Shown here piece after piece: positions 5,535 through 49,480 of a DNA stretch of 64,000 nucleotides (positions are counted from its first letter, which is position 1; every line of letters starts with the position of its first letter). The notes beneath the pieces were generated by a model. The model had not been told where the DNA came from, ran no database searches, and was given only the letters and a program-made list of their open reading frames with translations. Made by a program: the position numbers and the translations under genes. Origin of the DNA: Chrysophaeum taylorii (taxonomy: Eukaryota; Sar; Pelagophyceae; Pelagomonadales; Pelagomonadaceae); assembly GCA_029834535.1 (NCBI GenBank), contig JAQMWT010000437.1, positions 1-64,000 on the forward strand, read 5' to 3'.

Positions 5535-7995
5535 AGGGACAGACAGACAGACTCTGAGGCACTGTACCCGATCAACGTTGCCGTCGGGGTCAAGGGCGAC
5601 CCCTCGCGCCTCGTCTTTGGCGTCCGCACCCACGCGGAGCAGTACCCCGACCAGGTCATCATCAAGCTGGACAAACGCAACGCCTTCAACGAGCTCAAGC
5701 GCCGGACCGTCGTGGACAAACTCGCAAACCACGCCAACGCTAAGCTGCGTGCCTTTGGCCACTTTATGTTCAAACAATTGCGGCCGGCATCCTGGGTGGC
5801 CCTCCACGGCCCCACCGGCCTCGATCGTGCCCCCTTCGACTCTCAAGAAGGCGGCCAGCAAGGCGACCCCACCTATCCACCGGCGTACTGTCTGGCAACG
5901 CATGACGCCGCTCAGGCCCTTGACACCCGCTTACGTTCATGTGCCGGCTACGCCCGATTTGGCATGGACGACGGCGTGATCTCTGGTTCCCCTCGTGAGG
6001 TTGTCGACGCCCTCCTGCAGTACGCCCGCGACATCCAAGCTAGCGGCGAGGAGCTCCGCCTCGACAAGTGCGAGGCGTTCTGTCCGGCACTTGGCATGGG
6101 GCTTCTCGACCGCCCCGATGTTCACGACCACGTCCAAGTTGCGCCTGATGGCACGCGTACTCTTGCTGGTATCCCCGTTGTCGCCGACGGCCTCGTAATC
6201 TACGGTGAGCTACATGAGCCGTATTCGCACCAAGCTCCAGAACGTCTCCCTCCACTGCATGTACTCGTTGGGCCGCTACTGCATCGCCCCGCGCATGGAC
6301 TACATCGCGCAACACTGCTACCCCACCAATGCCTTGAGCGCGCTCCGCCGCTTCGACGTTGCCGCCCTCAGCTTCGTCGCCACAGCACTTGGCGCAGATC
6401 CGCGTCAGGTTTTTGACTCCAACGGCATCGTCCTCCAACGCCTCCGTCTTCCTGCTCGAAGTGGGGGTGGCGGCATTCGCTCCTGCGCCGACCTCAGCCC
6501 CGCCGCCTTTGTTGGCACGGCGGCCCAGGCCCTCCCACACCTCGTCGACCTTCGCGATCCTACGGGTGCCTTGGAGGTCCCTGGCTACCTCCCCCGCCTC
6601 GCCTCGGTCCTGGGTGCCACTTCTTTTCGCACAGGTAACGAGTTGCACCGTTGGCACCACCTCCTCGCATCCGGTTGCCGCCTGGGGCGGGCACTCGAGA
6701 CTGCGTGGGACGGACTTCGGGCTGATCTCCGTACCACGCTGGCTTCCCACGGCGGCGCTGGTTCCGGCGACCCCGCCAACGTTCATCTCGTCGACGGTCC
6801 TCTCTCCCACGAATTCGTCTCCATGGGCGTCCTCGTCGACCCCACCATCTCGACACCCGTGCTCATACCCCAACTCCAGCGTGCTCTAACCTCCCAGCGC
6901 GAGACAGCTCGGGCCACTGCACTCCAGCGCCTTGCGGCCACCCTTCCCATCACCGAAGCACTTCGAGTAGCGGCGTCCTCATGGGATCGCTTCTCGACCA
7001 CGTTCATCAGCTCGTGGCCCAGCTCTGGCCTTCAAATCCCCAACCGCTGCTGGGCTGAGATGTGTGCCCAGTACTTTGGCTACCCCTCTCCAGCTTGTTT
7101 GGGCCTCGTGGGCACTCGCATTCTGGGCACTGACGTCGTTCTCGACGCTCACGGCAAGGTGCTTCTCACGCAGGCCAACCTTGTCAACCGCGGAGGAGCG
7201 CGGACCACCTGGCATGACGGCCAGCTCGACTGCGTCCACGGCAGCGTCAAAGAGGCCGGCATCCCAGCCCTGTCCGAGGTTTTCGGCATCTTTGCTGACG
7301 TCGTCGCCCCTACCATTCGCACGCGCCTCTACGGCCGGTACCGAGGCAATCTCGCCCGACGTCAAGTCGTCCCAGACATCCTCACCACGCTCGACAACAA
7401 GGAGCAACTCTACGACATCAAAACCCTCGCTTGGGGTTCGTTGTACACCGCCCACGCCCTCCATCCCTCCCACCCGTCGCCTGTCGATCGGCGCGCAGCG
7501 CAAGTCCACTCCGAATACCTCGCTCACGCCCGCGGCATCGACGCCATCATCCCCCAGCCGGGTACAGCACCACCGCCTGGCTTCTTGGGCCCTGTCGAAC
7601 AGCGGCTACGTAGCTACGGCACCGTCGCCGGCCTCGTCTTTGGTGCCTTCGGTGAGGCCAGCGCGGCGTGCCACGCTCTCGCCCAAACATGCGCAGAGCG
7701 CATCGCTGCGCGAACCTGGGTGACAAGCGGCTGCGCCAACTTCACGGAGGCAAAGGCGGCCCAAACTCGCCGCATCTACCGTGAGTGGGGGATCGCCAAC
7801 GCATTAGGCCGGGCTCGCTGTGCCCTCACCGCCCTCACCCATGTCGCCGCCTCGGGGAACCCCGCCCAGGCCGCCCGATCCCAGCAGGACGTCACCCTTC
7901 GTCGCACATACGTCCGGCGGCAGCATGCGTACGACCTACGGGCGGGGCCCGTCCTCTCTTCGCCTGCCCCACGCCTCGGCGATGACCCCGACTAG
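5535..7995 (+). pseudogene. 5'-truncated, frameshifted retrotransposon reverse transcriptase
   Basis: An open frame enters without a start codon just after the composite junction. It carries RT motif A (VIIKLDKRNAFNEL), motif B (GGQQGDPTYPPAYCLA), motif C as FGMDDG (usually [FY]xDD) and the KCE-containing motif D (LRLDKCEAFCP). Between about 6199 and 6225 the reading frame changes; the downstream 596-codon frame continues as the RT thumb and a long C-terminal extension ending at 7995. The fingers domain and any ORF1 are missing, so it is a dead 5'-truncated non-LTR copy. Its last 510 nt and 3' tail are almost identical to the insertion at 32637-33262, showing recent activity of the family. 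Confidence 0.75.
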
Positions 7996-8242: not shown

Positions 8243-11200
8243 TTAGAGTAGATTGGATCGACACCAGCAGCCGGTACGCGAGAGGGCCTGGGCCTCAGAA
8301 AGGAGGCGGTGGACTTGAGGTGTATTTGCAACGTCGCGCGGGGTGTGTCGGTGGTCTGTCTTTGCCCTAAGGTCGGCGCCCTTGGCGACTAAGAGGCGAA
8401 CGCAGTCGAGGTGGCCGTGAAAGGAAGCAAGGTGGAGGGGGGTGGAGCCATCGTCGGTGGAGGGTTTGTTAAGTTTGGCGCCGTGGTCGAGGAGGAGCTT
8501 GACGCAAGCAAGGTGTCCCTCCCTGGCGGCGACGTGGAGGGGGGTAGAACCACCGATGGCGGTGGGCTTGTCGACGTCGGCGCCCTTGATGATGAGAAGG
8601 TAAGCGCAGTCGACATGACCATAGAGAGAGGCGAGGAAAAGAGGCGTGGATCCGTCGTCGGGAGCTGGTTGGTCGAGGTCGGTTTTTTGTTTTTTATAAT
8701 TATTATATTTAATTTTTTTTGTGTCGTCGAGGAGGAGGCGGAGCCAGTTGAGGTGTCCGTTCTGGGAGGCGAGATGGAGTGGCGTGGAGGGTTCGCGAAG
8801 CATGGTGTCCTCGGCCTCTGACAAGATCTGTTTGAGTTTGCGGGTTTTGGCGAGGGCTCGGGGCGTGCGGTCGCTTAGCTTGGTCTGGGCGAAAAGGTCA
8901 GCTCCCTCGATAATTAAGAGGCGGACGCAGTCGACGCGGTCGTAAAGGGAAGCGATGTGAAGGGGGGTGAAGCCATCGTGGGTGGTGGGCTTGTCGAGGT
9001 CGGCGCCCGCGTCGATCAAGAGCTGGAGCGAGTCAACGGCGCCTCGGAGCGCGGCGAGGTGGAGGGGGGTCCAGCCGTCGGGTCTGGCCGAGGCGACCTC
9101 GGCGCCTTTGTCGATGAGGAGTTGGACGCAGGCGAAATCTCCGCCGACCGAGGCAGAGTGAAGCGGCGTCGATCCGTCTTTGGTTCTGGGCTCGTTGACG
9201 CGGGCGCCCTCGTCGATCAGAAGTTTGGCGCAGGCGAGGTGGCCGCGGCGCGAGGCGGCGTCGAGGGGCGAGGATTCGGCCGTGGGTTTGTTGATCTCGG
9301 CGCCGTTGGCGATCAGCAGGCGGACGCACTCGAGGTGGTCGTGCTGCGACGCGAGGAGAAGCGGACTCGGGTCGCCGTCGCGGTCGTCGTCGTCGTCGCG
9401 GTTTGGGGGTGGGTCGACGTTGGCGCCGGCGGAAATCAAGAGTCGCGCGCAGTCGAGGCGGCCGGCGCGACACGCGACGTGCAAGGGCGTCGCGCCGCGA
9501 AAGTTGGTCATCCCGAGGTTAGCGCCCCTCGAGGTCAAGATCCGGACGCAGGGCGCGCGGCCGAACTCGGCGGCGAGGAGTAAAGGCGTCGAGCCGTCGT
9601 CCTTTTTTTTTTTGTTCGGGTCGGCGCCCTTCTCGAGCAAGAGCTGGACGCAGGCCGCGCGGCCCTCGCGGGAGGCCGCGTGGAGCGGCGTCTCGCCGGA
9701 GACCGCTGCCGTCTTGTCGACGTCGGCACCCTCGTCGATCAAAAGCCTCGCGCACTCGACGTGGCCGTATCGCGAGGCCCAGACCAGGGGGGTCGGGCCG
9801 TCGCGCGTTGTTGTTTTTTTTTCGTCGTCGTCGTCGTCGTCGTCGTCTGTCGTCGCGAGTCGAGAGCAGTAGTAGTTCGAAGAATTCGAAGAATTCGAAG
9901 AAAAGGAGGAGGAGGACAGAGCCGGCTTATTGGTGGTCGTCGTTTTCTTCTTCTTCTTCTTCTTCTTCGAAGGAGGAGGAGGACGAGGCGGGCGCGGCCG
10001 CTTTGGTTTTTGGTCTCGGTCGTCCGCCCGGCGGTCGACGTTGGCGCCGGCGGAAATCAAGAGGCGCGCGCAGTCGACGTGGCCGCGGCGACACGCGACG
10101 TGCAAGGGCGTCGCGCCGTCGGCGCATCTCGGTTTGTCGACGTCGGCGCCCTCGTCGATCAAGACGCGCGCGCAGTCGAGATTCCCGCGGCGCGCGGCGA
10201 GGTGCAGCGGCGTATCGTTGGTCGGCGCCTCGTCGTCGACGTCGGCACCCTTGTCGATCAGGAGCCGGAGCCATTCGGCGCGGCCGTCCCTCGAGGCGAC
10301 GTGGAGGGGCGGGAGCGCGTCGTCGCCCTTCGCCTCGGCTTCCGAGAGAATATCTCGAACCTCGCGCGTCTTGGCGACGTCCCGCGGGGTTCGCCTCTGG
10401 TGCGTCTTGGCCTTGACGTCGGCGCCTCCTCCGATCAAGAGGCGGACGCAGGCGACGTGACCGTTGAGGGCGGCCGCGTGAAGAGGCGACGCGCCCTTGT
10501 CCTTCCGAAGCGCGTCGACGTCGGCGCCCTCGGAAATCAGAATCTCGACGCACGCGACGTGGCCGTTCCACGCCGCCATGTGGAGCGGGGTGAGTCCCTT
10601 GTCGTCGGTCGTCGTCTCGTCCAAGTTTGCGCCGTTGGAAATCAGGACGCGCGCGCACTCGACCTTCCCGTACCGCGAGGCCGCGTGCAGCGCCGTAGCT
10701 CCCGCGTCGTCTGGGGTCCGCTTGTCGACCTCGGCGTCGCCGAGCTCGACCAGGACGCGCGCGCAGTCGACGTGGCCGTTCCGACACGCCCAAACTAAGG
10801 GCGTCGAGCCGCCCTCGTCGGCTTTGTCGACGTCCGCGCCGTGGATAATCAGGAGTCTCGCGCACGCGACGCGGTCTCGGCTCGCCGCGATCCCGAGCGG
10901 CGTCGCGCCGTCGCTCCTCCGAACCGCGTTCAAGTCGGCGCCCCGCTCGATCAGGAGTCGCGCGCACTCGACGCGATCGTGCGAGGCGGCCGCGTGCAGC
11001 GCCGTCGACCCGCCGCCGGCGTCGTCGACTCCGGCGCCCCTCGAAATCGCGACGCGCGCGCACTCCAAAGATCCGAATGTCGCGGCTCCGAACAAAGCAG
11101 CCGCTCCGAGAAGACTCCGGGATCCTCCTCGGAGAGATTCGTCGTCGAGCAATATCGCCAGAGCCTCGGCCCGGTTCAACGTCGCCGCGAGGGCCACCGA

Positions 11201-14200
11201 CGTCAAATCAGCCTTCTTCTTCTTCTTCTTCTTCTTCTTCATCATCTTCTTCTTCTTCTTCTTCTTCTTCGTCGAGAACGCGTCGTCGTCGTCGTCGTCG
11301 TCGTCGTCCTCCTCCTCCTCCTCCTCCGAAGACGCATAGTCGTCGGCGCGGCGGCGCGAGAGGAGCACTTTGAGGGCCTCCGTGCAGGAATTGGCGACGG
11401 CGAAATGCAAGGGGGTGCTGGCGCCGAGGCGGGCGTTGGGGTCGACCGAGGCCGCGAGCGTCGCGGCCGCGCGACCAAAGCCGCGGCGACAGGCCTGGGC
11501 GAAGGCGTAGACCCGCGTCTGGTCGTCCCAATCATCATCATCGTCCTCCTCCTCATCCCGTCGTCGTCGGGACATAATCGGTTCGTCCTCCTCGAGGTGT
11601 TCGAGCCATTCGACGAGGCCGTCCCTTCGGGGATGGGCGGCGAGGTCCCGGTCGCAGGCGGGGGGGTCGAGGACCCTCATTAGGTCTGCCCGGCGCGGCG
11701 CGGAAAGGGCGGACGAAAAGGCGAGATCGAGGGGCGTCGCGCCCGTCTTGTCTTTGGCGCGTTTGGAGGCACCGGCCGAGAGAAGGGCTCTCGCCGTCTC
11801 GGCCCGGCCGTTTCGCGCGGCCGCGTGGAGGGTCGACTCCTTGGAGACTGGATCGACCGGAGTCGCGAGGTCGGCGCCGCGCTCGAGCAAGCCACTCAGA
11901 AACTCTGTCTCGCCGTCCGAGGCCGCGCGGAGGGCTAGGGCCCAAGTTTTTGAGGACGTATCGCGGCGCAGTCGCGACACGTCGACGAGTCGCGAGGAAC
12001 GCGTCGAGTCCCACGAATCGAGCTTGACGCTCGCCCACTTCTTCCGCTCGTCCAAGGCGACGAGCGTGCGCGGGACGTACCGCGTCTCCTCGTCTTCTCC
12101 TTCCAGGACCTCGACGGCCTCGCCGGCGTAGAGGTCGGGGATACGGATCTCGTCGAGGACGCGGTCGCGGACGACCCGATCGGCGATGCCAAAAGCAAAG
12201 AGGGCTGGAGCGTGCCACTTGCGGCAGTCTCGTATTTTCGAAAGAAAAAGTTCCTCCGCCCCGAGACGCGCCGCGACGTAGTACTCCTGGACGGATAGGT
12301 GCACGAAGCCTATTCTTGGCTCCGTCCCGCCGCCGCGAGCCGCGAGGGGAGGCAGCAGGCCCGACCGCGCGAGGACCCACGCCGCGGCCGCGAGGCGCGG
12401 GGGGGCGACGCGTCCCAAGTCCGAGGCGCACAACGTCTCGTACGCATCCTTTTTTTCGTGCGCTGCGAGGGCGAGATCTCGGAAGAGCTCGCTCGCGCGC
12501 GCCGCGCCCGCCTCGACGAGAACGAAGCGCGCCACGCCCAGCACGCCGTCGCCGCGGGCCTTCTTCTCCTCACACCTGGTGGCCGCTAGAGCCGCCCACG
12601 CCGAATCCGCGCGACCGTATACTTCGGCGGCACTCCTCCTCTTCGCCGCCGCCGCCGCCGGCCGAAAGAGCATCGTCTCGAGGCGCGCGGCGAGCGGGAG
12701 GTTGTCGTCGACGGCGCCGCACTCGAGGAAAACAAAGCCCTTCAGATCGTCGAGATTTTTCGGGTCGGGCCTCGACGTCACCAGAGTAAAGGCCGCGTTC
12801 TCGCGCCTCGCGCGTTCGACGACCTTCTCGCGTCGGACGACTCGGTCGAGACCGTCCAGGCAGAGGACGAGCCGCCGCGACCGTCTCGCCGCGCGGAAGG
12901 TTCTGGCATCGAGAGACTCTTCTTCGATCCACCGTCCGAGCCAGTCGTCGTCGTCCTCCGAGATGGCGACGCTCGCCAGACAAATCCTCGCAGGCACCAA
13001 CGCCGATTCGACGTCGACGCCCCGCTGATACCTACACAGCGTCGCGACCAAGGCCCGCGCGAGCCACGTCTTTCCCGCGTCCCCTTCCAAAACGACGCGG
13101 CCCGCGCGCGCCGCCGCCTCTGATTCCTCGCCAAATACCTCGGCCAGAGCCGCTCCGAGAACGCCGCCGCGGCGATAAACGACTCTTCGTTTCTTCCCGA
13201 AAAACGCGACCGCCTTCGAGTTACGCCGCACCTTGGGCGCGAGCTCGCGAAAACGAGCGGAGACCGACACCACCTCGTTATTCGCTCCGTCCCGTACCGC
13301 GTCGGCCTCCAAAAGAATCGACTCGAGCACGCCGTTCGCCGTCTTCGCCGACAGCTCGACGTCCTCGATCCGGGCGCGCTCGAGCACGTCCAAAAATCCT
13401 GCTACGTCTTGCTCGTCCCTTCGGAACCGGGCCTCCGCCAGGGCGAAGAGGGCTCCCCCGTGCGTGGGGTCCCGCTCCAAGGCCCGTTCGCTCGCCGCCA
13501 CCGCCGCCTCCAGAGTGCCTCCTCCTCCTCCTCCTCCTCCCGAGGAGCAGGAGGAGGAGCGGCGGCCGCCGAGGTAAGCCCGAGCCAAGAGCGCGTCTCG
13601 CTCCGAGTTACTTTCCGTCGACAATCCCAGAATCCTCTTCGCGTCGCACACCTCGTCCAAATCTACGAGCGCTCGCCCCACGTTCAGCAGCACACGCTCC
13701 TCTGTCCTCCTCGTCGTCGTCGTCGTCCTCCTCTCGCCCCGCGTCGCCTCGCCCATCATCGCCTCTACGAGCGCCGCGCCGCACTTTGGACGCAGAGAGA
13801 CGTCGCGGGCGAGACACCTTTCGAGGACGAGATCGCGCATCGCAAGCGACGGCGCCAGCAGCAGTCGTCGGAGCTTGATTCGTTTCCTTTTCGGACACTC
13901 GAGGAGCCGGTTTGGCCACAGCTCGAAAAGCGCGCGGCCGTCGAGCCCCAAACTCGCGACGCCGTGCTTTCGCGCCCAAACGTCCGCTCGCGCTCTCGTC
14001 CATCGCGATTCCGGCGGCTCCTCGAGCCGCGCATTCTTCGAAGGAAACATCTCTTCGTCGGCGTGGTACACGTGGACAGCGACCATCCCAAACGCCCACA
14101 CGTCCGTCTCCGACGGCGACGACGAGGCCCTCCTCCTTCCAGAGTCGGAGAGAACCGCCGTCGCCTCGGGCGAGGCATATTCCGGCGTCCCGCCCTCGAG

Positions 14201-15553
14201 GACTGCCACGAGGCCCGCGCCCCTGCCCTCGCCGCGCCGCGCGACACCAAAATTACGCAAATAGGCGCGTCCCGCCGCGTCGACCAACACGTTTTCGAGC
14301 TTGACGTCGCCGTGCAAAACCGACCGATCGTGGCAAAACGACAGGGCCGAGGCAATATCCAACAGAATCGAGCTCATTTTCCGTCGCACGCTCTTCACGC
14401 GTCCCTCGTACAGATCGCCGCTCGAAACCAGACGTTCCAAATCCCTCGCCCCCTCGCAGAACCTCGTCATCATAAAGTAATCCGAAGCGCCGCCGGCCGC
14501 GGCGAAGTATTCCATCGCCTCGACGCATTCGTGCGATCCCAGCTCTGCCAGCACCACCGCCTCGCGGAACATGGTCGACGACCGCCGCATCGCCAGCACC
14601 CTCCTCGACGTCTTTTCGACCACGGCGTACACCTGTTGACCGCGCGATCCTTTCCCCACAAACTCGACGACTTGGAATCCGCCCGGCACGACGTGCCCCG
14701 CCTCCAAGAACGCGGCGGCCGGAGGCGACTCCAGACTCCCCTCGCAACAGCAGGAGGAAGACTCCTCTCGGACCACCACCACCTGCGGTCGCAGCGAAAC
14801 TTCGTCGCTTCGCGAAATAGCAACAGCAGGCTCGGACGGACTTCTCTCCTCCTCCTCCTCGCGCCGCCGACGCGTCGCCGTTCTCCCACCCCCCACGCGT
14901 TGATCCCTCGGGTTAAATTTTGACCGGCGCGCCCCCGACTCCTCGAGGTACACGACGATGTCGATGTGACCTCGCGCGAGGGCGAGATCGAGGGCTGTCT
15001 CCGTCCCGTACCCCGCGTTTATCACCGCTCCTTTCTCCACCAACAGCTCGACCGCGTCGACGAATCCTTCGTAGCTCGCGCGCATCAGCGCCGTCCAATC
15101 CCGCGCGTCTCGCGCCTCGACGTCCACCCGAGCCACCAAGTACTCGACCACCTCCACGTGCCCGTGCCCAGCAGCGAGGTGCAGCGGCGTCCGCTCGAGC
15201 GCGTCCTTTCCTCGCGCCGCGCTCGGGTCCTTCTCGACCAACATCTCCAGAGTCCGCAAATGGCCCCGCGACGCCGCCACCTGCACCGCCCACGCCACCT
15301 CCTCCTCGACCACCTCCACCTCCCCGACAAAGCTTGCAGCGACCAGCCGCAGCTCGCCAAGCCCGGGGCCATCCAGTCGCAACCGCCGCACGGCGCACAC
15401 GTCCCCGCGCTCCATCGCGCGCACCAAAGCCCCCTCTTCCTTTCCAACATAACTCGACACCCGGCCCACAATTCCCGAACACCTAGACTCGGACTCGGAC
15501 TCGGACTCGTCGATGATCAGGTCCACCACCTCAAACACTCGCTCCTCGCGCAT
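8243..15553 (-). CDS. Ankyrin-pseudokinase-NACHT-ankyrin STAND protein
   Basis: A single uninterrupted ORF of about 2436 codons; I chose the ATG at 15553 (MREERVFEVVDLII) because the frame opens earlier only with GTG. Residues ~87-210 hold three to four ankyrin repeats. Residues ~292-600 form a protein-kinase fold with a Gly loop (GKGSRG), HGDVKLENVLV and SPE, but the VAIK lysine is Arg (VLAMRR, ~323) and DFG is NFG (~434), so it is predicted to be a pseudokinase. Residues ~620-760 contain a TPR-like helix pair. Residues ~817-1100 are NACHT-like: P-loop LEGDAGKTWLAR, Walker B RLVLCLDGLD, sensor FTLVTSRPD and the signature FVHLSVQEYY. About 30 ankyrin repeats follow to the C-terminus, interrupted by acidic and poly-Lys tracts. 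In known STAND proteins such layouts mean ligand sensing by repeats and nucleotide-gated oligomerisation; a receptor or immune-like role here is inference. Confidence 0.85.
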   Translation of the reverse strand: MREERVFEVVDLIIDESESESESRCSGIVGRVSSYVGKEEGALVRAMERGDVCAVRRLRLDGPGLGELRLVAASFVGEVEVVEEEVAWAVQVAASRGHLRTLEMLVEKDPSAARGKDALERTPLHLAAGHGHVEVVEYLVARVDVEARDARDWTALMRASYEGFVDAVELLVEKGAVINAGYGTETALDLALARGHIDIVVYLEESGARRSKFNPRDQRVGGGRTATRRRREEEEERSPSEPAVAISRSDEVSLRPQVVVVREESSSCCCEGSLESPPAAAFLEAGHVVPGGFQVVEFVGKGSRGQQVYAVVEKTSRRVLAMRRSSTMFREAVVLAELGSHECVEAMEYFAAAGGASDYFMMTRFCEGARDLERLVSSGDLYEGRVKSVRRKMSSILLDIASALSFCHDRSVLHGDVKLENVLVDAAGRAYLRNFGVARRGEGRGAGLVAVLEGGTPEYASPEATAVLSDSGRRRASSSPSETDVWAFGMVAVHVYHADEEMFPSKNARLEEPPESRWTRARADVWARKHGVASLGLDGRALFELWPNRLLECPKRKRIKLRRLLLAPSLAMRDLVLERCLARDVSLRPKCGAALVEAMMGEATRGERRTTTTTRRTEERVLLNVGRALVDLDEVCDAKRILGLSTESNSERDALLARAYLGGRRSSSCSSGGGGGGGGTLEAAVAASERALERDPTHGGALFALAEARFRRDEQDVAGFLDVLERARIEDVELSAKTANGVLESILLEADAVRDGANNEVVSVSARFRELAPKVRRNSKAVAFFGKKRRVVYRRGGVLGAALAEVFGEESEAAARAGRVVLEGDAGKTWLARALVATLCRYQRGVDVESALVPARICLASVAISEDDDDWLGRWIEEESLDARTFRAARRSRRLVLCLDGLDRVVRREKVVERARRENAAFTLVTSRPDPKNLDDLKGFVFLECGAVDDNLPLAARLETMLFRPAAAAAKRRSAAEVYGRADSAWAALAATRCEEKKARGDGVLGVARFVLVEAGAARASELFRDLALAAHEKKDAYETLCASDLGRVAPPRLAAAAWVLARSGLLPPLAARGGGTEPRIGFVHLSVQEYYVAARLGAEELFLSKIRDCRKWHAPALFAFGIADRVVRDRVLDEIRIPDLYAGEAVEVLEGEDEETRYVPRTLVALDERKKWASVKLDSWDSTRSSRLVDVSRLRRDTSSKTWALALRAASDGETEFLSGLLERGADLATPVDPVSKESTLHAAARNGRAETARALLSAGASKRAKDKTGATPLDLAFSSALSAPRRADLMRVLDPPACDRDLAAHPRRDGLVEWLEHLEEDEPIMSRRRRDEEEDDDDDWDDQTRVYAFAQACRRGFGRAAATLAASVDPNARLGASTPLHFAVANSCTEALKVLLSRRRADDYASSEEEEEEDDDDDDDDDAFSTKKKKKKKKMMKKKKKKKKKADLTSVALAATLNRAEALAILLDDESLRGGSRSLLGAAALFGAATFGSLECARVAISRGAGVDDAGGGSTALHAAASHDRVECARLLIERGADLNAVRRSDGATPLGIAASRDRVACARLLIIHGADVDKADEGGSTPLVWACRNGHVDCARVLVELGDAEVDKRTPDDAGATALHAASRYGKVECARVLISNGANLDETTTDDKGLTPLHMAAWNGHVACVEILISEGADVDALRKDKGASPLHAAALNGHVACVRLLIGGGADVKAKTHQRRTPRDVAKTREVRDILSEAEAKGDDALPPLHVASRDGRAEWLRLLIDKGADVDDEAPTNDTPLHLAARRGNLDCARVLIDEGADVDKPRCADGATPLHVACRRGHVDCARLLISAGANVDRRADDRDQKPKRPRPPRPPPPSKKKKKKKKTTTTNKPALSSSSFSSNSSNSSNYYCSRLATTDDDDDDDDEKKTTTRDGPTPLVWASRYGHVECARLLIDEGADVDKTAAVSGETPLHAASREGRAACVQLLLEKGADPNKKKKDDGSTPLLLAAEFGRAPCVRILTSRGANLGMTNFRGATPLHVACRAGRLDCARLLISAGANVDPPPNRDDDDDRDGDPSPLLLASQHDHLECVRLLIANGAEINKPTAESSPLDAASRRGHLACAKLLIDEGARVNEPRTKDGSTPLHSASVGGDFACVQLLIDKGAEVASARPDGWTPLHLAALRGAVDSLQLLIDAGADLDKPTTHDGFTPLHIASLYDRVDCVRLLIIEGADLFAQTKLSDRTPRALAKTRKLKQILSEAEDTMLREPSTPLHLASQNGHLNWLRLLLDDTKKIKYNNYKKQKTDLDQPAPDDGSTPLFLASLYGHVDCAYLLIIKGADVDKPTAIGGSTPLHVAAREGHLACVKLLLDHGAKLNKPSTDDGSTPLHLASFHGHLDCVRLLVAKGADLRAKTDHRHTPRDVANTPQVHRLLSEAQALSRTGCWCRSNLL
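11217..11325 (-). repeat. Trinucleotide tracts encoding poly-Lys and poly-Asp/Glu
   Basis: Long CTT/TTC runs followed by CGT and CCT runs encode, on the minus strand, acidic then lysine tracts inside the ankyrin protein, between its sixth and seventh C-terminal ankyrin units. A similar low-complexity insert lies at about 9810-9990 (Lys, Thr, Ser, Asn and Asp runs). They look like slippage-prone linkers between ankyrin blocks and remain in frame. Confidence 0.8.
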
Positions 15554-15756
15554 TTTTTGCCAGCCACTCACTCTCAGTCAGTCCTTTTCCAACTTTCCAA
15601 CTACAGAATTTTACTACTATTTCCTCCTACCTGTATGATGACGCGAATGTCGCACGAAAATGCGGGACCGTTGACGGAAACACTGCAACTCTCTTCAACA
15701 TGCCCTTCGACCAACGAACTGACCGGGAAGGAGCAAGTCGCTGAGTGAGTCGCTGC

Positions 15757-15838
15757 GATCACCCCATCGATCGATCGATGGGGGTGATCGATCGATCGAT
15801 CGATCGATCACCCCATCGATCGATCGATCGATCACAGG
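15757..15838. repeat. GATC-rich palindromic microsatellite
   Basis: Runs of ATCG tetranucleotides alternate with CACCCC and GGGGGTG blocks, giving large inverted repeats that could form a cruciform (for example GATCACCCC against GGGGGTGATC). It lies about 200 bp upstream of the ankyrin-NACHT start codon. Function is unknown. Confidence 0.8.
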
Positions 15839-15839
15839 T

Positions 15840-16292
15840 CCGCCGCGAAAACTAACCGACCAATCATTCTCGCGCGACGACCAACATCCGCTATCGCCAA
15901 AAAAACATTGAAACATATGAAACTTCATTTCTTATTAATTCGATTTTATTACTTATGACGTAAGCCCAGAACAATTTTTCCTACTATTTCTGGGAGACGG
16001 ACGAACAGAAAAATTATTAGGACGTCGTAATTGGCCAATTATAATAATAATAATTGGCCAAACGAAACGAGTACTCAGTATTTTCTTCCGATAATAATAT
16101 AACAACTCAAAGTGTGGGCGTACCTTGTACTACATACAACCTTGAGTAAGTATGTCACGACGTACTGACTACCAGAAGTGCCCGCGCGGGACAACGACGG
16201 CGTCCTTTGTGGATGCAGCGCTTTACAGCGAGCGCCTCTCACGATTCAGCAGCATCGACCAGCTCGAGACTTCGGTCTCCGAAATTAATTAA
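15840..16292. other. AT-rich intergenic stretch without recognised gene
   Basis: It contains an inverted pair of TTGGCCAATTATAATAATAA-like words around 16030-16060 and no supportable reading frame. Confidence 0.5.
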
Positions 16293-16568
16293 TTAACGCG
16301 CATCACCCATAATAAGCCCAAAATGCACGACCACCCTCGCGGCCATCGCCAAGTCAAGCCCTACACCAAATACGTCGCCATAAAGGTCGCGATCCACCTT
16401 CATCTTCGGCCGCCATTCGGCGTGGACGAGCCCAACAAGGGACACCATCGAGGCCAAACCTGACGCCCTCAGGGCGGTCCAGTCGACCGTTACCGGCTCC
16501 TCGGACGGGACGCCGACCCCGGCGACGACAACGACGAAAAATTGGCCGCTTCTTTTTCTTAATTAAGG
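16293..16568 (-). other. Unassigned stop-free stretch, possible exon or relic
   Basis: The minus strand is open for about 90 codons between a TAA upstream and a TAA at 16293-16295. It contains VTVDWTALRASGLASMV and later YGDVFGVGLDLAMAARVVV, which read like ordinary globular protein rather than low-complexity translation. The first internal ATG leaves only about 50 codons. I recognise no family. It could be an exon, a decayed gene or chance; the LINE immediately beyond may have disrupted it. Confidence 0.25.
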
Positions 16569-16749
16569 CTGGTTCTTCATTATTTCGGCTTCACTCTAGA
16601 GGAGATGATGGAGCACGTCGATGATGGTGGAACACGTCGCTTCTCGCGTGTCTTTTGCCGAACTAATCCACTTACTTAGTAAAGAGTGGCCTGCCGAATG
16701 CATGGGGGGGTAATTAAATTAATTAATCCTCGTGGCGCGCGGGATGAGA

Positions 16750-18300
16750 GTTATTGGGCGTTCAGACGAGGGGGTTAAAGTGGAAGATTGAGGGCGAGTT
16801 GGTGGTCTGTCGCCGGTTGTCACAGTTTTGAGCGCGGGAGTACCTGATCTTCGTTGGTATGTGGAATTTGCGGAGTGCCTTGTTGAGACCCCGGCCGTGC
16901 GCAAACTGCAGGACCCGACCCGACCCGACCCGATCCGCGGGGCGTTTGGAGGCGCACCACGTGGAGAACATCTTGAATCCGAGGGAGGCGGTTCCAGGGC
17001 GTGCGGGCAATATGCGGAGTTGTCGGCGAGAAACGCAGGCATCGATAGTCTCCAGGCCAAGGCGCCGGAGGAGGGTTAAGGTTTTGAGACGGCGTTGCTT
17101 TTGATGTGACACACGTCTGGTGACGTGTAACGCGGCACATCGCGCGTGCGCACTATGCGTGTAAGCATCGCAGGCGACTGCAGACTACCTCGGTTAGGGA
17201 CCATAATTCCGCACCGTGGAAGATGGCGAGAACGAGACGTATCGACAATTCCCTCGGCTCTATCACAGACGTAGCTCGAAACAAAAACGAAATGCACTAC
17301 CAAAAGCCGCTGCTACCTTCTTCCGACGAGAGTCAACGTCCTCAGAGTTGAAAGAGAGTACCGAGCCCGGGTATTTGAACGTCGCCACCATTTACCGTCT
17401 AAGTCGGCGAGGCCAGCACCGTCGTAGGTTGTCTGGTCATTGTAGAGAATGCCTGGCTTGGAAACACACATCTCGGGTTTTGACTCTTTTACCTGCTTGG
17501 CGGTCACCCGCGTGGACTTCCATACCCCATCTGGCAAAGCGCCTGATGAGCTCATTATTCACAGCGCGACGGTCGGAAAACGGAAGCTCCGTCTGCATAC
17601 GCGGACTCTCCGAGTGCGACTTCATCAGTGCCGCGTTGTAGCGCGACGCCCCCAGCGAGTTCATCGTCTTTGCTTCGTCTTGGAAAGAAATGCATGCTGG
17701 TTCCTTACCTTCGCGTCGTTGCCGCGAGATGATGATCGAGGCCACCGCGCGTAGATCACGCTTCGTGGTCTCCATCCAACGTAATCGTTCACCTGGCACT
17801 CAGAAGAGGACCTTCTCGACGGCCGCGGCGGCGGCGACGGTGCTCCTTCGGCGCCTCCCGGTGCGCGGCATCCTGCGCCTTATGGTTTTTTACCAATCGC
17901 GACGAACGGCCCGTATCAACGCTCCTCGAACGTCGTCGTCGCTCAACCTGGCGAGGCGTTCGACTCGATCGCGCCTTTTGGTCGTCCTTCGACAAGCGAC
18001 CTCGTCGGCGACACGTCGCTGCGCTTGACCACAAAACTGCTGCGGTGTTCCCGTTGGCGCGAGACGACACCGGCGCAGCTTTCGACACTCGTGTTGAAGA
18101 AGGCGGCGTTGTAATACTTCAAGGTGCCGAACTCGCCTTGACCGAGTTCCGCCGCGCGCCAACAAAGAAGGCCCTCTCGAGCTCCGACGTCTGGTTTGGT
18201 CGACCCGCTTCGGTCGAAGAAGAACAGCCTCTCTCTCTCTCTCTTCTTCGAGAGGACGGACTAGTTTTTTTTCAACCAAAGGATATCTATCCCCCCCCTT
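16750..18300 (-). mobile_element. Decayed non-LTR retrotransposon (LINE) 3' half
   Basis: Minus-strand frames, shifted many times, give late RT text: ELIRRFARWGMEVHAGDRQA with GKRVKT, then MCVSKPGILYND, then RRLGLETIDACVSRRQLR, then STWCASKRP and YGRGLNKALRK-like text. The order and wording match the better preserved copy at 54960-55515 (GAESWCLTE, RRQLRWAGHVARMP, PRKMLSSWVRSKRP). No frame is intact for more than about 120 codons. It separates the ankyrin gene from the zeaxanthin epoxidase gene. Confidence 0.6.
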
Positions 18301-18365
18301 ATTATTAGTGCGTTCGTTCAATACATTAGAATTTAGATATAGTGTGAATGACTGACCTGACGTCT

Positions 18366-18410
18366 TTAAATGATGTCGACTGCTAAGAGGGGGTGGGTTT
18401 GACATAAAGG
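18366..18410 (-). mobile_element. Retroposon 3'-tail fragment
   Basis: GTCGACTGCTAAGAGGGGGT is the reverse complement of the conserved 3' end of the RT element seen at 8085-8107 and 33235-33258, with a small insertion before TTTAAAGAC. Only the tail is present here. Confidence 0.6.
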
Positions 18411-18596
18411 ATTGTGGGAACGACTGACGTCATTCATCCCGTTGTAAGAAGACCCTATTGAAGAACGGAGGAGGAGGGCTACGACTACGGTCATCAATGA
18501 AATAGAATAGTACGAGTAGTAAGTAGTAAGGACCCCCCCCCCTTGATTGAAAATTAATTGAATTGAAGCGACCCAGACAGAGACTTTGAGTTGACG

Positions 18597-20300
18597 ATGA
18601 TATCCTTGAAGGAAGGCAGGTCCGAGGTCCAAGTGTTGTTGTTAGTTTTGGGTGCGGTGTTTGGGCTGTCTCCAAAGGTGGGCATCGCCGGCGGGGGCGT
18701 CGGCGGGCTGACTGCGGCCGTTGCGCTCCAGAAGCGTGGATTTGAGGTGAGCGTGTACGAGAAGACGGGAAAATTCGCGCGGTTTGGGGGACCGATCCAG
18801 TTGGCGAGCAACGCTCTGTCGACGCTCAAGGCGATCGACGAGGAGGTGTTCGAGGAGGTGATGGCGCAGTTTACGTTTACGGGAACGAGGCGGTGCGGGA
18901 TAAAGGACGGACTTCGGTCGCGGGGGTTCAAGACGTCTGGCGTGTTCGAAACGTCGTACTTTTGGGACGAGGAAACGCCGCACGATTGGTACGTTACGTT
19001 TCCGCTGAAGGAGTGCGCCGATGCGTTCGAATTGCCGTACACGGGGGTCGTCGATCGGCCCGTCTTGCAACAAATTCTTCTGAAAAGGGTCGTCGAGGCG
19101 AACGTTTTCCAGAACAAAACGGTAACTTCGTACCGGAACGACGCGGGGAATGGCGGCGTCGAGGTATGTTTTGCCGACGGGTCTCGGGATCGGTGCGATG
19201 TTCTGATCGGGGCGGATGGGATCTGGAGCGGTGTGCGCGCGCAGATGTACTACGGAAGCGACGACGGAAGCGCGGAAGCGAAAAAGAAGCGGGGGTGTGA
19301 TTATTCGGGTTACACGGTGTTCGCGGGCGAGGCTGTCCTGGATCTTCCCGACTACTACCAGGTCGGGTACAACGTGTACCTCGGTCCGCGACGGTATTTT
19401 GTCAAGTCGGACGTGGGGGATGGGCGGGTCCAGTGGTACGCGTTTTGCGGCATGGAGCCGGGTACGAAGTTTGCGGGAAACGCGTGGGAGGGCGAGGAGA
19501 CGGGAAGCAGCGACGTCGTGGACTACATCCTCTCGCTCCACGAGGGCTGGACGCCCGAGATCGAGTTTATCCTCCGGAACACGGACCCCTCTACGGTCGA
19601 GCAGCGCGACCTCTACGACCGGAATCCGTTGGGGGTGTTGTTCCGGCCGTGGGTCGACGGGAGCGTCGTTTTGCTCGGAGACGCAGTTCACCCGATGATG
19701 CCCAACCTCGGCCAGGGCGGGTGCCAGGCGATCGAGGATGCCTACGAGCTTGCTGTTGCCTTGGGGAACAGCGACGGGGATATCGCGACGGCCCTCGGCG
19801 CGTATCAATCGAAGCGCAAGCCTCGCGCGGCCGCCGTGACCTTCCTCTCTCGGCTCGCGTCGGACCTTATTATCCACGCTTTCGATACGCCGTGGTCCTG
19901 GGTGGACGACAAAGGCACCTCCTGGCAGTCCTACCTCACGACGGTATGGAAGCCCTTGTTGCAGCTCGTCATTTTTCCAGCCCAGTTTCTTTTCCTCTAC
20001 TCCTACTCCCCGACCGGTCCGACGGGCGACCTTCCGAAGAAACTGGAGAAAGAATGGCGCGACCGCCACAAACGAGCGGCCGAACAAGCCTTTAGGCTGC
20101 GGCGAACGAAACAAAAGTGCAGCAGCAGCAGCAGCAGCCAAGGTGGTGGTGGTGGTGTTGTTGTTGGGGGGAGGTCCTTCCTCTCGCGAGACGACGACGA
20201 CGAGCAGGAGGAGGTCGCCGCGGCGGTAACGACGACGACGACGGCGGCGACGGCGGCGACGACGGCGGCGACGGCGGCGACGTCGTCGTCGTCGTCTTAA
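18597..20300 (+). CDS. ZEP: Zeaxanthin epoxidase
   Basis: FAD-dependent monooxygenase of the xanthophyll pathway that epoxidises zeaxanthin to antheraxanthin and violaxanthin in plastids. From ATG 18597 the protein has 567 residues; the frame opens at a TTG two codons earlier. The N-terminus (~12-24, VLLLVLGAVFGL) is hydrophobic and signal-peptide-like. It is followed by the dinucleotide-binding motif VGIAGGGVGGL (~28-38), IGADGIWSGVR (~204-214) and the second FAD motif GDAVHPMMPNLGQGG (~361-375) with QAIEDA. The tail from about residue 505 is low complexity (Ser, Gly, Asp, Thr and Ala runs). Heterokonts usually have several ZEP paralogues, so the precise substrate is uncertain. The gene is convergent with the kinase that ends 6 bp away, so the two share a 3' region. 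Confidence 0.9.
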   Translation: MISLKEGRSEVQVLLLVLGAVFGLSPKVGIAGGGVGGLTAAVALQKRGFEVSVYEKTGKFARFGGPIQLASNALSTLKAIDEEVFEEVMAQFTFTGTRRCGIKDGLRSRGFKTSGVFETSYFWDEETPHDWYVTFPLKECADAFELPYTGVVDRPVLQQILLKRVVEANVFQNKTVTSYRNDAGNGGVEVCFADGSRDRCDVLIGADGIWSGVRAQMYYGSDDGSAEAKKKRGCDYSGYTVFAGEAVLDLPDYYQVGYNVYLGPRRYFVKSDVGDGRVQWYAFCGMEPGTKFAGNAWEGEETGSSDVVDYILSLHEGWTPEIEFILRNTDPSTVEQRDLYDRNPLGVLFRPWVDGSVVLLGDAVHPMMPNLGQGGCQAIEDAYELAVALGNSDGDIATALGAYQSKRKPRAAAVTFLSRLASDLIIHAFDTPWSWVDDKGTSWQSYLTTVWKPLLQLVIFPAQFLFLYSYSPTGPTGDLPKKLEKEWRDRHKRAAEQAFRLRRTKQKCSSSSSSQGGGGGVVVGGRSFLSRDDDDEQEEVAAAVTTTTTAATAATTAATAATSSSSS

Positions 20301-45565: not shown

Positions 45566-48075
45566 CTAAGTGAGGTAACGAGCACGAAGCCGGATAAAGG
45601 AAGGAGCTTCCATACTGCGGGTGAAGATATCGCTAAGGTTGTCAAGGCGGGGAATGTGTTGGAGATCAATGATGTGGTTGCGATGATATTCGGCGGTGCT
45701 GTAAAAGCGAATGTCAATATGGCGGGTGCGCCGTGTGAGACATTGGAGACGGACTTGGGTGACGGTGGTGCTATTATCGATATACATTGGTACCGTGTGA
45801 CGAGGGAGATCAAAGTCATCAAAAAGTTTGAGAAGCCAAGAGAGCTCAGCAGTAGCGGCGTAAAGAGCGAGCAATTCAGCTTCAAAAGAGGAGCGGGCGA
45901 GGAGGTACTGCGAGCGAGAACAGTAGGCTATCATAGAGCCAGCAAGGAGAAAACAGAAGCCAGTAGTGGAGTGGCGGTCATCAGGGTCGTCGGCCCAGCT
46001 GGAGTCGGAATAACCACAGAGACGAAGGGTAGAATCGCGACCAAGAACAAGGGCAAGATGTTGAGAACCATTGAGATATCGTAGGGTATGGGATAAAGCG
46101 TGCCAGTGGGGTTTACCAGGATTGTGTGAAAAACGCGCACACTGATTGACGGACCAAGTGATATCAGGGCGAGTCATGACGGGAATGAATAAAACACAGC
46201 TAACAATACGACGAAAAGGGATGCGTGCCATGAAGACGTGAGCGGGAGAGCCAGGAGCAGGACAATCAGCCGCAGAAAGATGAAGACGCGTAATGCGGAG
46301 ACCAACGTAAGTGGTTAGATCTAGCTCGTTGACGTCAGTGAAGGTTCGGAAACGGAGGAAGAAGGCTTGGTAATGGCCAAGGCAATGACGAGGGTGCGCC
46401 ACAAGAAGATCATCAACGACAAGAACGAGACTTAGGACAACGGTAGAATTAAGCACGAGCTTGTAACTGCAAATGTCACCAGATCCGCGGACGAAGCCAC
46501 AATCATTGACAAGGAAGCGTTCCAAATAAAGCCACCAATTACGACAAGCTTGTTTGCAACCATACCAAGAGCGACGGAGCTTGTAAACGATTTTGGAACC
46601 ATCGGTGGGTTGGCGAGGAGCATACCTTCGGGTAGCCAGACATAGATGTCTTCGTCAATGGGAGCTTGGATAAAAGCGGAGCTGACATCCAACTTGTGCA
46701 AATCCCAGTCATGAACAGCAACAAAAGTTAGAAAGAAACGGATGGTGACGATGTTGGCAACTGGGGGATAGGTATCGTGATAATCAATACCGTGAACCTG
46801 GGTGTAACCGCGGACAACGAGGGGAGCCTTGTACGATTTGAAGCGGATTCATACTTCTTGCGGAGGATCCACTTGAGGGTACAGATGTTGCCAGAAAAAG
46901 TCGAAGGAACGCGAACAACATCCCAGCAACCAAGCTGACCGAGGGAATGATAATCTTTGGCGATGGCGTGCAACCAGCCAGGACGCTCAGGATTTGTCTG
47001 AGCTAAAGCTTCGCGTAATTGGGTGGAAGTGATAGCCCCATCGTCAATGTATGAATACTGAGAGGTTTCTTCAGAAGCAGAGTAATGAACATGGACAGCA
47101 TGGGGATCAACAATGGTATGAGCTAGACAAAGGGGGAGGAAGACATAATGAACTAACAAACGAAAGCTAGAATAAGAGACATACAGAGGGTGACAGGAGG
47201 AAATAGAATCGACATTATGACAGGACGAAACAGAATCGACATTACGTTGGGGACAAACAGAATTGACGTTGCGTTGTGGACAAACGCTAGAATGAAAGTT
47301 CGATGGTTTGTTTGTGTGTTTTGGTAATGCGCTTTGGTCGACTTTGCGCGGTCGGCCCCGTTTGGCTCGACGTAATAGTGCACTTTTCGTATTGCCCGTT
47401 GACGGTTGTGGTATTGTTTCTGGGGTGATCAGTTCCGATAAGGCCGGCTCCTGAGCATCTACAACAGAAGACAAGGGAGCAACAGCGGAAGACAAACGAG
47501 GGTCATAATAAAATAAGTCAGGGAAACGAGAATTCACAAGAGGAGGAGGAAGGGGTTGGGAGGACAGAGACTTACGCATGGCAAAATTTTCGTCAAAAAC
47601 AACGTCAATAGATGTATGGATGACGGGACCAGTGGTGCGTTGAAGCAATATGCGATAACCAGGTCCGGCAGAGGGATACCCAATGAAGATGCCGGTTATA
47701 GCTTTGGTAGGCCATTTGTCGCCAGTAAGAATAGCAGCAGGACAGCCCCAAACACGAAGAAAATCGACACGGGGTAGAGCCTTGTGTAGCATTTCATATG
47801 GCGTCATGTAACCAGGGTTAGAGGCGTTTGGCATGCGCTCGGAGATGAAGTCAGCCGTTTCCATGGCCCAACGCCAAAAATCAGGTGGACGGTGCGCATG
47901 CACCAATAGAGTGCGAGTAATATCAGCAGTTGCGCGATGAGAGCGTTCCACAACACCAGAAAAAGCGTGCGCCTGTGAAATTTGCATGATACTAATCGTG
48001 CGGATATCCGTGAAAACCGCGATATGAACTTCACGCGGCTTTACAAGCGCATTACCGATGTTTACATGGGCCATG
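45566..48075 (-). pseudogene. Ty1/copia polyprotein 3' part: integrase, RT, RNase H
   Basis: Read from 48075 downwards on minus: integrase C-terminal text FSGVVERSHRATADITRTLL, TPYEMLHKALPRVDFLRVWG and FDENFAMRKSL; then a linker with repeated NVDSVSSC-like units; then RT WDLHKLDVSSAFIQAPIDED and YVWLPEG, the metal motif as LVVDDLLV, and RNase H with GYSDSSWADDPDDRHSTTGF, SRSQYLLARSSFEAELLALY and DNSTTV. Order and motifs are diagnostic of copia pol. At least two frame changes (around 46720-46860 and 46430-46530) break the ORF. Sequence upstream of 48080 on this strand is antisense to gag and not part of the gene. Confidence 0.85.
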
Positions 48076-48084
48076 GGGATCGTG

Positions 48085-49480
48085 TCGCTCAGTCTGCAAT
48101 TGCTTCCTTGCATTCCTTGGTATGCAACACTATCGATGAACTTTAGTCTTTTCTTAACAAGTTCATCACCGGTGTTCAAGTTGCTCCGCATCATCAAGAT
48201 TTCCCTGACACTCTTGCATTGCAATTGCTTCAGACAAAAATCCCCGACTCGATCTTGTCTAAGGATCTCATTGCACTTGACCCTAAACTGTGCACATATG
48301 ATGGTTTCGTTGATCGCCTCAACAGTAAAGTCTTCGATTATCTTCAGACCAAGTCTGCGCTTGTCCATGCTACGCTCCGTGAGGGTCCCTGCCGTCGTGA
48401 ACGTTGCAACTTTTGCGGTCGTACCAACCATCCTTTGGATAAATGCCTTCATCGTCTCAATGATTTGCGCTCCCAACAGCGTTCCCGCCCCCGCCCACCT
48501 TTCCGTTCTAGGCCTTCGCCTCCATTTTCCCGTGGCTCTTTCCATCGCAAGCGCCCACGCGCTACTGACCTTTGTCACTTTTGTGGTATTCCTGGCCATC
48601 ACCAGAAGGATTGTCGTAAGCGCCAGCGCTATCTCCTCTCCCAAGCCGCAGCCCTCCCTCGCCCTCGTCCCCAATACCCACCTCGACCCCATCCACCATT
48701 CTACCAAAACTATCTTTCCGCCCCCATCCCACTCTTGCCCCCCTCTCAACCCTCTCCGCCGCTTCTTGCGTTGCCACCCTCCACCACACCCTCTGTCCCG
48801 CCTTCCACTACCATATCCCCTCCTGACCCATCTCTTTCTGCACCCACCTATCCGTCTTTCAATTTCCATCTTCTTTCCATCTCCCCCTCCATTCACCAAG
48901 TCCTTTCCTCCACCAATGCCCTTACCGCTCTGCTCACCGCCCGTGAGCGCGACTACCTTCACTGCAACAATCTTCGCCTCGTCGTCTACGATACCGGTGC
49001 CAACGTCAATCTCTTCAATTCCCCTGCTGGTTTCACTGACCTTGACAACACTCAACAGCACTAAATCACTTCTGCTATCGGCACTGGCTCTGTTTCTGGT
49101 TCTGGCACTGCTCACTTAACGCTCCCTACAATTGGTCCTCTTGACAATCGTGGTCTTCCTTCTCCTGCGCCCACTCTTTCCGCCCCTCATGGCATCCATG
49201 TCGCGTTCCCGCATACCCTCATCTCTCCTGGCCTTGGTCACAAACGGATTCTTTCGGATCATGCTCTTGAGCAAGTTGGTTACGATTGTCATACGATTCA
49301 GGATGTTGGCCCTACTCATCCGCAACGAATCTTACGTCATCGCCAAACGCATCACGTTATTCCCCTGCTTCGTGTCGCACACCGTGCTGCTCTTTGTGTC
49401 GTTAGAGGACAGGACGAAAGGCAGCACTACCACTGCCACCATTCTCTACCAGAGGCATAGTGATTTTTACTGTTCTCTAG
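48085..49480 (+). pseudogene. Copia gag and protease part, opposite orientation
   Basis: The plus-strand frame carries gag helices (FITGVQVAPHHQDFPDTLAL), two CCHC zinc knuckles (CNFCGRTNHPLDKC and CHFCGIPGHHQKDC) and the protease active site YDTGANVNLF followed by GTGSVSGSGTAHLTLP. A stop (TAG near 48146) precedes the main frame and another (TAA at 49062-49064) lies just after the protease site; the text continues into a pre-integrase zone until 49480, where an insertion begins. This half runs opposite to the integrase/RT half next to it. Confidence 0.8.

Follow-up and report, generated by a model that had tools for sequence, protein, structure and literature searches.

The window analysed here, a 64,000-nucleotide stretch of a contig of Chrysophaeum taylorii, contains a single unbroken open reading frame (ORF) on the minus strand at positions 8243..15553, which runs for 2436 codons from an ATG at 15553 to a stop codon ending at 8243. 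An alternative start, GTG at 15571, adds six codons, none of them a stop, and gives a frame of 2442 codons; residue numbers in this work are counted from this GTG and are six higher than those counted from the ATG. The uninterrupted frame of the initial annotation, for which no strand had been given, was thus borne out and lies on the minus strand. Shuffling of the DNA of the ORF region (200 shuffles) gave a mean of 60 stops and a minimum of 38, and these counts, together with the matches to Pfam profiles, rule out a chance or misread frame. In addition, the protein collection contains a 2436-amino-acid protein (P0002) from a 65,350-base contig, which is the window's own protein.

Just beyond the 3′ end of this gene lie reverse-transcriptase-like ORFs (5712-7995, plus strand), which gave no Pfam match at E 0.001 and contain a GGQQGDP motif that we take to be reverse-transcriptase- or retrotransposon-like. 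A Pfam retroviral polymerase SH3-like domain was found at 46728-49115 (minus strand), and this segment is therefore probably a retrotransposon remnant. A 1384-amino-acid ORF at 49704-53858 (plus strand) is strongly GC-skewed and matched nothing in Pfam at E 0.001, and two more protein kinase ORFs are present on the contig at 20307-21275 and 23234-24901 (both on the minus strand).

The number of ankyrin repeats in the protein was determined with a small profile built from three of its own repeats. The profile gave 28 matches, of which the one at residue 1017 was dropped as a chance match, leaving 27 repeats, 2 before and 25 after the kinase-fold domain; Pfam Ank marked 25 stretches. The initial estimate of about 30 ankyrins was therefore a fair one. 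The N-terminal repeats occupy about residues 93-215 (14927..15295, minus strand; Pfam Ank and Ank_2), and the C-terminal array of about 25 repeats, as delimited by Pfam and the repeat profile, spans 8357..11899 (minus strand) and includes K- and D/E-rich low-complexity inserts. Triplet tracts (TCG, CTT and CGT) at 9822-11308 insert in-frame K-, D/E- and S-rich runs within this array. A PDB profile search with query A2 was dominated by ankyrin matches. The roughly 25 C-terminal ankyrins provide the repeats expected at that end of an NLR, with a predicted role as sensor. The window protein (8243-8300, minus strand; ALSRTGCWCRSNLL) and protein P0004 (AMSQTGCCLIR at its C-terminus) have a cysteine-bearing tail in common, which, as a guess, might be a lipid attachment site.

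Pfam Pkinase matched residues 300-597 (13781..14674, minus strand) with an E value of 3.5e-21 in the whole protein, and with 6.2e-23 and 82 bits when this piece was searched. The closest solved sequences in the PDB were kinases of the AGC/CAMK type, AKT2 among them (E 1.8e-10). The motifs of this kinase-fold domain are VLAMRR at residue 325 (14582..14599, minus strand), HGDVKLEN at 420 and LRNFGVAR at 438. VLAMRR aligns with AMKR/AMKC of five of the eight members of the family described below and places Arg at the position of the beta-3 Lys, while the DFG retained in three of the eight is replaced by NFG at residues 440-442 (14246..14254, minus strand). The domain thus has the kinase fold and lost catalytic motifs of a pseudokinase through K to R and DFG to NFG, with the HxD Asp and the Asn retained, in agreement with the altered Lys and NFG initially annotated in a kinase at about residues 292-600. 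Such changes of catalytic residues need not always abolish kinase activity; an active kinase would nevertheless not be the favoured reading of the window copy.

Between the kinase and the next module, at about residues 640-790 (13202..13654, minus strand), lies a putative TPR-like helical segment, whose profile matches in the window (TPR_19, E 0.0045) and in a paralogue on contig C529 (TPR_16, E 2.2e-6) are each below the cut-off. It is followed by a NACHT-type module at residues 790-1190 (12002..13204, minus strand), which was assigned by homology to paralogues and not by Pfam. Pfam NACHT gave no match in the whole window protein at E <= 0.1 and none in the 401-residue piece covering residues 790-1190 at E <= 5, the sole match there being AAA at E 0.044. 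The assignment was made because this piece is 42-45% identical to six paralogues that match Pfam NACHT: at E <= 1, PF05729 matched six of seven aligned members (best 3.7e-8), all but the window copy. In the genome scan, the NACHT matches of C27, C324 and C534 were above the cut-off alone and those of C309, C538 and C73 with neighbours in the same frame. A PDB profile search with the NACHT module gave nothing significant, its structure model was poor (pLDDT 39.9, pTM 0.32), and neither NB-ARC nor LRR was matched by Pfam in the window protein.

The nucleotide-binding motifs of this module are unequally preserved. Instead of the Walker A pattern GxxxxGK[ST], the window copy has a remnant, GDAGKT (13067..13084, minus strand), which is two residues shorter than in the paralogues, as seen in the alignment and as a gap in the DNA; the other seven core members have a longer loop and then SGKG (GSGKG in six, CSGKG in one). 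The Walker B motif, LCLDGLD at residue 903 (12845..12865, minus strand), keeps its acidic residues, and LCLDGL is invariant in seven sequences, with the E that follows DGLD in most kin changed to R in the window. The sequence FVHLSVQEYY at residue 1089 (12278..12307, minus strand), mostly FFHLTFQEYY in kin, lies in the late NACHT/winged-helix region. The latter two motifs are present as initially annotated. No profile places a NACHT domain at about residues 817-1100, where it had been put, although the homology to matching paralogues does support one. Likewise, the annotated succession of ankyrins, kinase, NACHT-type module and ankyrins stands, but it had overlooked the TPR-like segment, the gap in Walker A and the absence of an N-terminal domain that is dealt with below.

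The C. taylorii genome (70.8 Mb in 697 contigs, the window being on contig C437) was searched with the NACHT piece (E <= 0.01) and the kinase piece (E <= 1e-5). The published genome comprises 71 Mbp in 702 contigs, and the main text of that paper contains no words beginning with ankyrin, NACHT, immun or kinase (PMC10366177). The NACHT piece matched 14 contigs, and in all 14 the kinase piece matches upstream on the same strand. The window gene is therefore a member of a 14-locus family with kinase→NACHT order in C. taylorii. In seven paralogues (C309, C324, C27, C538, C529, C73 and C534, named by contig), the core from kinase to NACHT was read from end to end. Those on C309, C324, C27, C538 and C73 lie in open frames that are 2339 to 3406 amino acids long; in C529 a stop interrupts the frame between ankyrins and kinase, and in C534 the frame breaks within NACHT. 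Further family loci are broken by internal stops (C207, C551 and C358) or fragmented (C366).

Core identity between the window and the seven paralogues is 44-46%, compared with 51-93% among the paralogues themselves, and the window has the longest branch of the eight-member tree (0.90, the next being C73 with 0.50). The beta-3 Lys is retained in five of the eight members and is Arg in the window and C27; C73 reads SAMRR, which is a gap in the eight-member alignment. The HxD Asp is retained in all eight. DFG is found in C529, C324 and C534, GFG in C309, C27 and C73, and NFG in C538 and the window. Two distant relatives, C489 and C74, matched Pfam NACHT below the cut-off (E 2.9e-5 and 2.5e-4) with GTGKS and GAGKT as Walker A, and Pfam recognised no kinase in either at E <= 0.01. 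Taken together, the kinase fold of the family has lost catalytic residues repeatedly, and NACHT stays recognisable except in the window copy.

Of the seven paralogues, five (C529, C309, C534, C73 and C27) carry a helical domain N-terminal to the first ankyrins, and C538 carries part of one. In C324 (76300-78150, L061), LRRs and an unrecognised N-terminal segment stand where the helical domain would be expected, as if swapped. The helical domain of C309, which is in the same 3406-amino-acid frame as its kinase and NACHT, matched MLKL_N with 29.5 bits against a curated cut-off of 27; the matches of C529 (21.9 bits, E 4.9e-5) and the broken C207 (20.7 bits) were below it. The helical domain of C529 also matched RPW8 (E 0.0025). 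At E <= 1, MLKL_N and RPW8 each matched two of five aligned helical domains (best MLKL_N E 1.1e-6), and that of C73 gave MLKL_N at E 0.079 in a separate scan. As a control, 14 named genomes were searched; one of them gave an MLKL_N match, and none gave a match above the cut-off. When the helical-domain profile was compared by hhalign with C. taylorii proteins that match MLKL_N strongly, the profiles being shallow, the probability was 0.6%, which is not significant and no better than for a NACHT control, and a PDB profile search with the helical domain returned no MLKL and nothing relevant. Its structure model was all-helical but poor (pLDDT 51.4, pTM 0.40). On these profile matches, the N-terminal domain of the paralogues is likely MLKL/HeLo-like. 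The order of the predicted domains in the family is [MLKL/HeLo-like helical domain]-ankyrins-kinase-TPR-NACHT-ankyrin array.

At C565:114223, C25:18620, C309:112598 and C8:41495 (L066, L067, L069 and L070), the genome also encodes MLKL_N (63-67 bits) and, behind it in one frame, a kinase with HRD and DFG; the layout of these proteins appears MLKL-like, with a kinase that looks active, and was checked with Pfam for L066 and L067. At C359:238513 (L073), MLKL_N (28.5 bits) directly precedes an NPHP3_N/STAND NTPase with GFGKT and LIDALDE.

The helical domain is absent from the window: over 1,352 six-frame segments of the 64 kb its profile gave a best E of 2.1, and tblastn gave no match. Homology between the window and P0004 begins at P0004 residue 210, at window position 15427. 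A hidden upstream exon carrying the helical domain was considered and rejected, as none was seen in the three minus-strand frames at 15300-18700, which were inspected by eye, or in the profile and tblastn searches of the 64 kb, which cover the contig up to its last 1,350 bases. The window copy thus has neither the N-terminal effector expected of an NLR nor an MLKL_N domain.

Relatives elsewhere were sought in protein searches, each of which scored 8000 candidates that fell in a given length range and had words in common with the query. With window residues 283-1220 as query, 4 of the 8000 scored candidates had E <= 1e-10, namely the window's own protein and three from C. taylorii; with the part of P0003 that includes NACHT, 4 of 8000 had E <= 1e-3, namely P0003 itself and three others from C. 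taylorii. When shorter proteins were searched with a core profile, 89 of the 8000 reached E <= 1e-5, and these entries carry kinase domains, with one NACHT (P0020), one NB-ARC (P0054) and five AAA_16; domain layout was checked in P0020, P0034 and P0054. The P0003 query missed the window's own protein (about 44% identical over the region searched), and the core profile missed P0095 (1231 amino acids), a close C. taylorii paralogue. Since the searches missed known members, absence from other species is weak evidence. Within these incomplete searches of the protein collection, the full ANK-kinase-TPR-NACHT-ANK order was not found outside C. taylorii.

The initial annotation knew of no standard description of such an architecture, which is too broad a statement, as kinase-NLR fusions have been described in moss (PMC3352924) and fungi (PMC4986451) and occur in bacteria (P0020 and P0054). 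In the moss Physcomitrella, the PK-NBS-LRR (PNL) family has 45 members in one genome, 39 of them shortened (PMC3352924). As described there, PNL proteins resemble the window protein in having a kinase N-terminal to a STAND nucleotide-binding domain and then repeats, but they have NBS and LRR and are described without leading ankyrins, TPR or an MLKL-like domain (PMC3352924); the window protein does not have the NB-ARC followed by LRR that marks a PNL. The bacterial Pkinase-NACHT (P0020, Polyangiaceae) and Pkinase-NB-ARC-TPR (P0054) proteins also place a kinase before a STAND module, but have no listed ankyrins, and their best local alignments cover 13% and 23% of the query. A table that annotates the domains of fungal NLRs lists both PKinase and HeLo-like, as N-terminal domains to judge by the table's place in the text (PMC4986451), and no effector superfamily is more abundant in fungal NLRs than the HeLo/MLKL-related domains (PMC9815663). 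The C. taylorii family would differ from fungal NLRs in uniting an MLKL-like domain with a kinase and NACHT in a single chain; the first of these is missing from the window copy. Like animal and plant MLKL, the paralogues have an N-terminal domain, here of a putative four-helix type, and a kinase fold that in several has lost catalytic residues; unlike MLKL, they have intervening ankyrins and then NACHT and an ankyrin array, and the window copy has no helical domain and a kinase that is closest to the AGC/CAMK type. In the literature, for the most part titles and the beginnings of abstracts in the broader field, no report was found that joins NLR and MLKL in stramenopiles, or NACHT, a protein kinase domain and ankyrins in a microalga.

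Comparison of the window gene with the seven paralogues by NG86 gave dN of 0.55-0.63, dS of 1.38-2.26 and a ratio of 0.25-0.46, with dS near saturation and the ratio averaging both lineages. The gene has been under purifying selection as averaged over the divergence, within which a recent loss of constraint is possible. The description of the product as an algal receptor-like protein holds good in that it is NLR/STAND-like and combines ankyrins with a NACHT-type module that has a degenerate kinase at its side, in the ochrophyte C. taylorii. Because the window copy lacks the executioner, both kinase residues and a proper P-loop, yet remains open with dN below dS, it was read as a non-executing partner. 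Our leading reading, offered tentatively, is that the window gene is a strongly diverged, stripped STAND/NLR-type member of the family that may work as a non-executing modulator partner. In full members, sensing would fall to the C-terminal ankyrin array, oligomerisation to NACHT and execution, probably at a membrane, to the N-terminal domain; the kinase, in many cases inactive, would serve inside the chain for regulation or as a scaffold. The window copy would bind the same ligand or co-assemble with full paralogues and so damp or tune them, as do NRG1C and NRCX. These modulator NLRs have no working executioner and damp their paralogues (PMC12315475, PMC9851556). As in the window copy, their N-terminal executioner is gone (lost or inactive) while paralogues are intact; unlike it, they are plant proteins whose modulation has been shown, whereas that by the window copy, like immunity, oligomerisation and execution throughout this family, is what we infer.

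The main rival, which we regard as somewhat unlikely, is slow decay, in which a former full receptor is now needless and is degrading without present function. The missing helical domain, the altered kinase residues and P-loop and the longest branch of the tree are all in keeping with it, as are the broken siblings (C207, C551 and C358 with stops, C366 in pieces, C534 with its frame break and C529 with its stop) and the retrotransposon-like ORFs just past the 3′ end of the gene (5712-7995). In addition, ADR1-L3, a plant NLR that is likewise truncated, is described as likely non-functional (PMC12315475). However, decay would have left 2442 codons without a stop although dN is about 0.6, and dN/dS is 0.25-0.46, read with dS near saturation.

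A bolder form of the modulator reading, which seems to us rather unlikely, is a single-chain necroptosis-like system that fuses an MLKL-type executioner, a drifting kinase and a NACHT-ankyrin sensor, with the window copy as a dominant-negative or modulator that selection would have kept although all three active sites are gone.

The initial annotation took the pseudokinase itself, in the effector position instead of a death-fold or TIR domain, as the signalling or adaptor output of an NLR. In the window, ankyrins alone are recognised before the kinase, whose fold is well preserved except for its catalytic residues (Pkinase, 82 bits), and PK-NBS-LRR genes are known in moss (PMC3352924). However, five of seven paralogues put the helical domain first and the kinase inside the chain, and C489 and C74, in which Pfam recognises NACHT and, at E <= 0.01, no kinase, are not what a conserved kinase output would lead one to expect. 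With a likely executioner first and the kinase internal in the paralogues, the pseudokinase is probably no substitute for the effector; the effector reading is probably wrong, and a kinase output is improbable. Least probable of all is an ankyrin-rich signalling scaffold outside immunity and cell death, whose STAND module would switch, for example, development or symbiosis: STAND proteins serve many roles and the immune or cell-death role of the family is itself a prediction, but the family has expanded, some of its copies are broken, its ankyrin arrays diverge and its first domain resembles MLKL_N/RPW8, a pattern that we would regard as usual for immune-type receptors.

MLKL-type domains and NACHT receptors have been studied in animals, plants and fungi. 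If the first domain of the paralogues is of the executioner type, a bloom-forming heterokont would have it in one chain with a receptor and a kinase, which would raise the question of whether a pathway of separate proteins can exist as a fusion. The repeated loss of kinase residues across the family may also offer a natural series for the role of the kinase fold after catalysis is lost.
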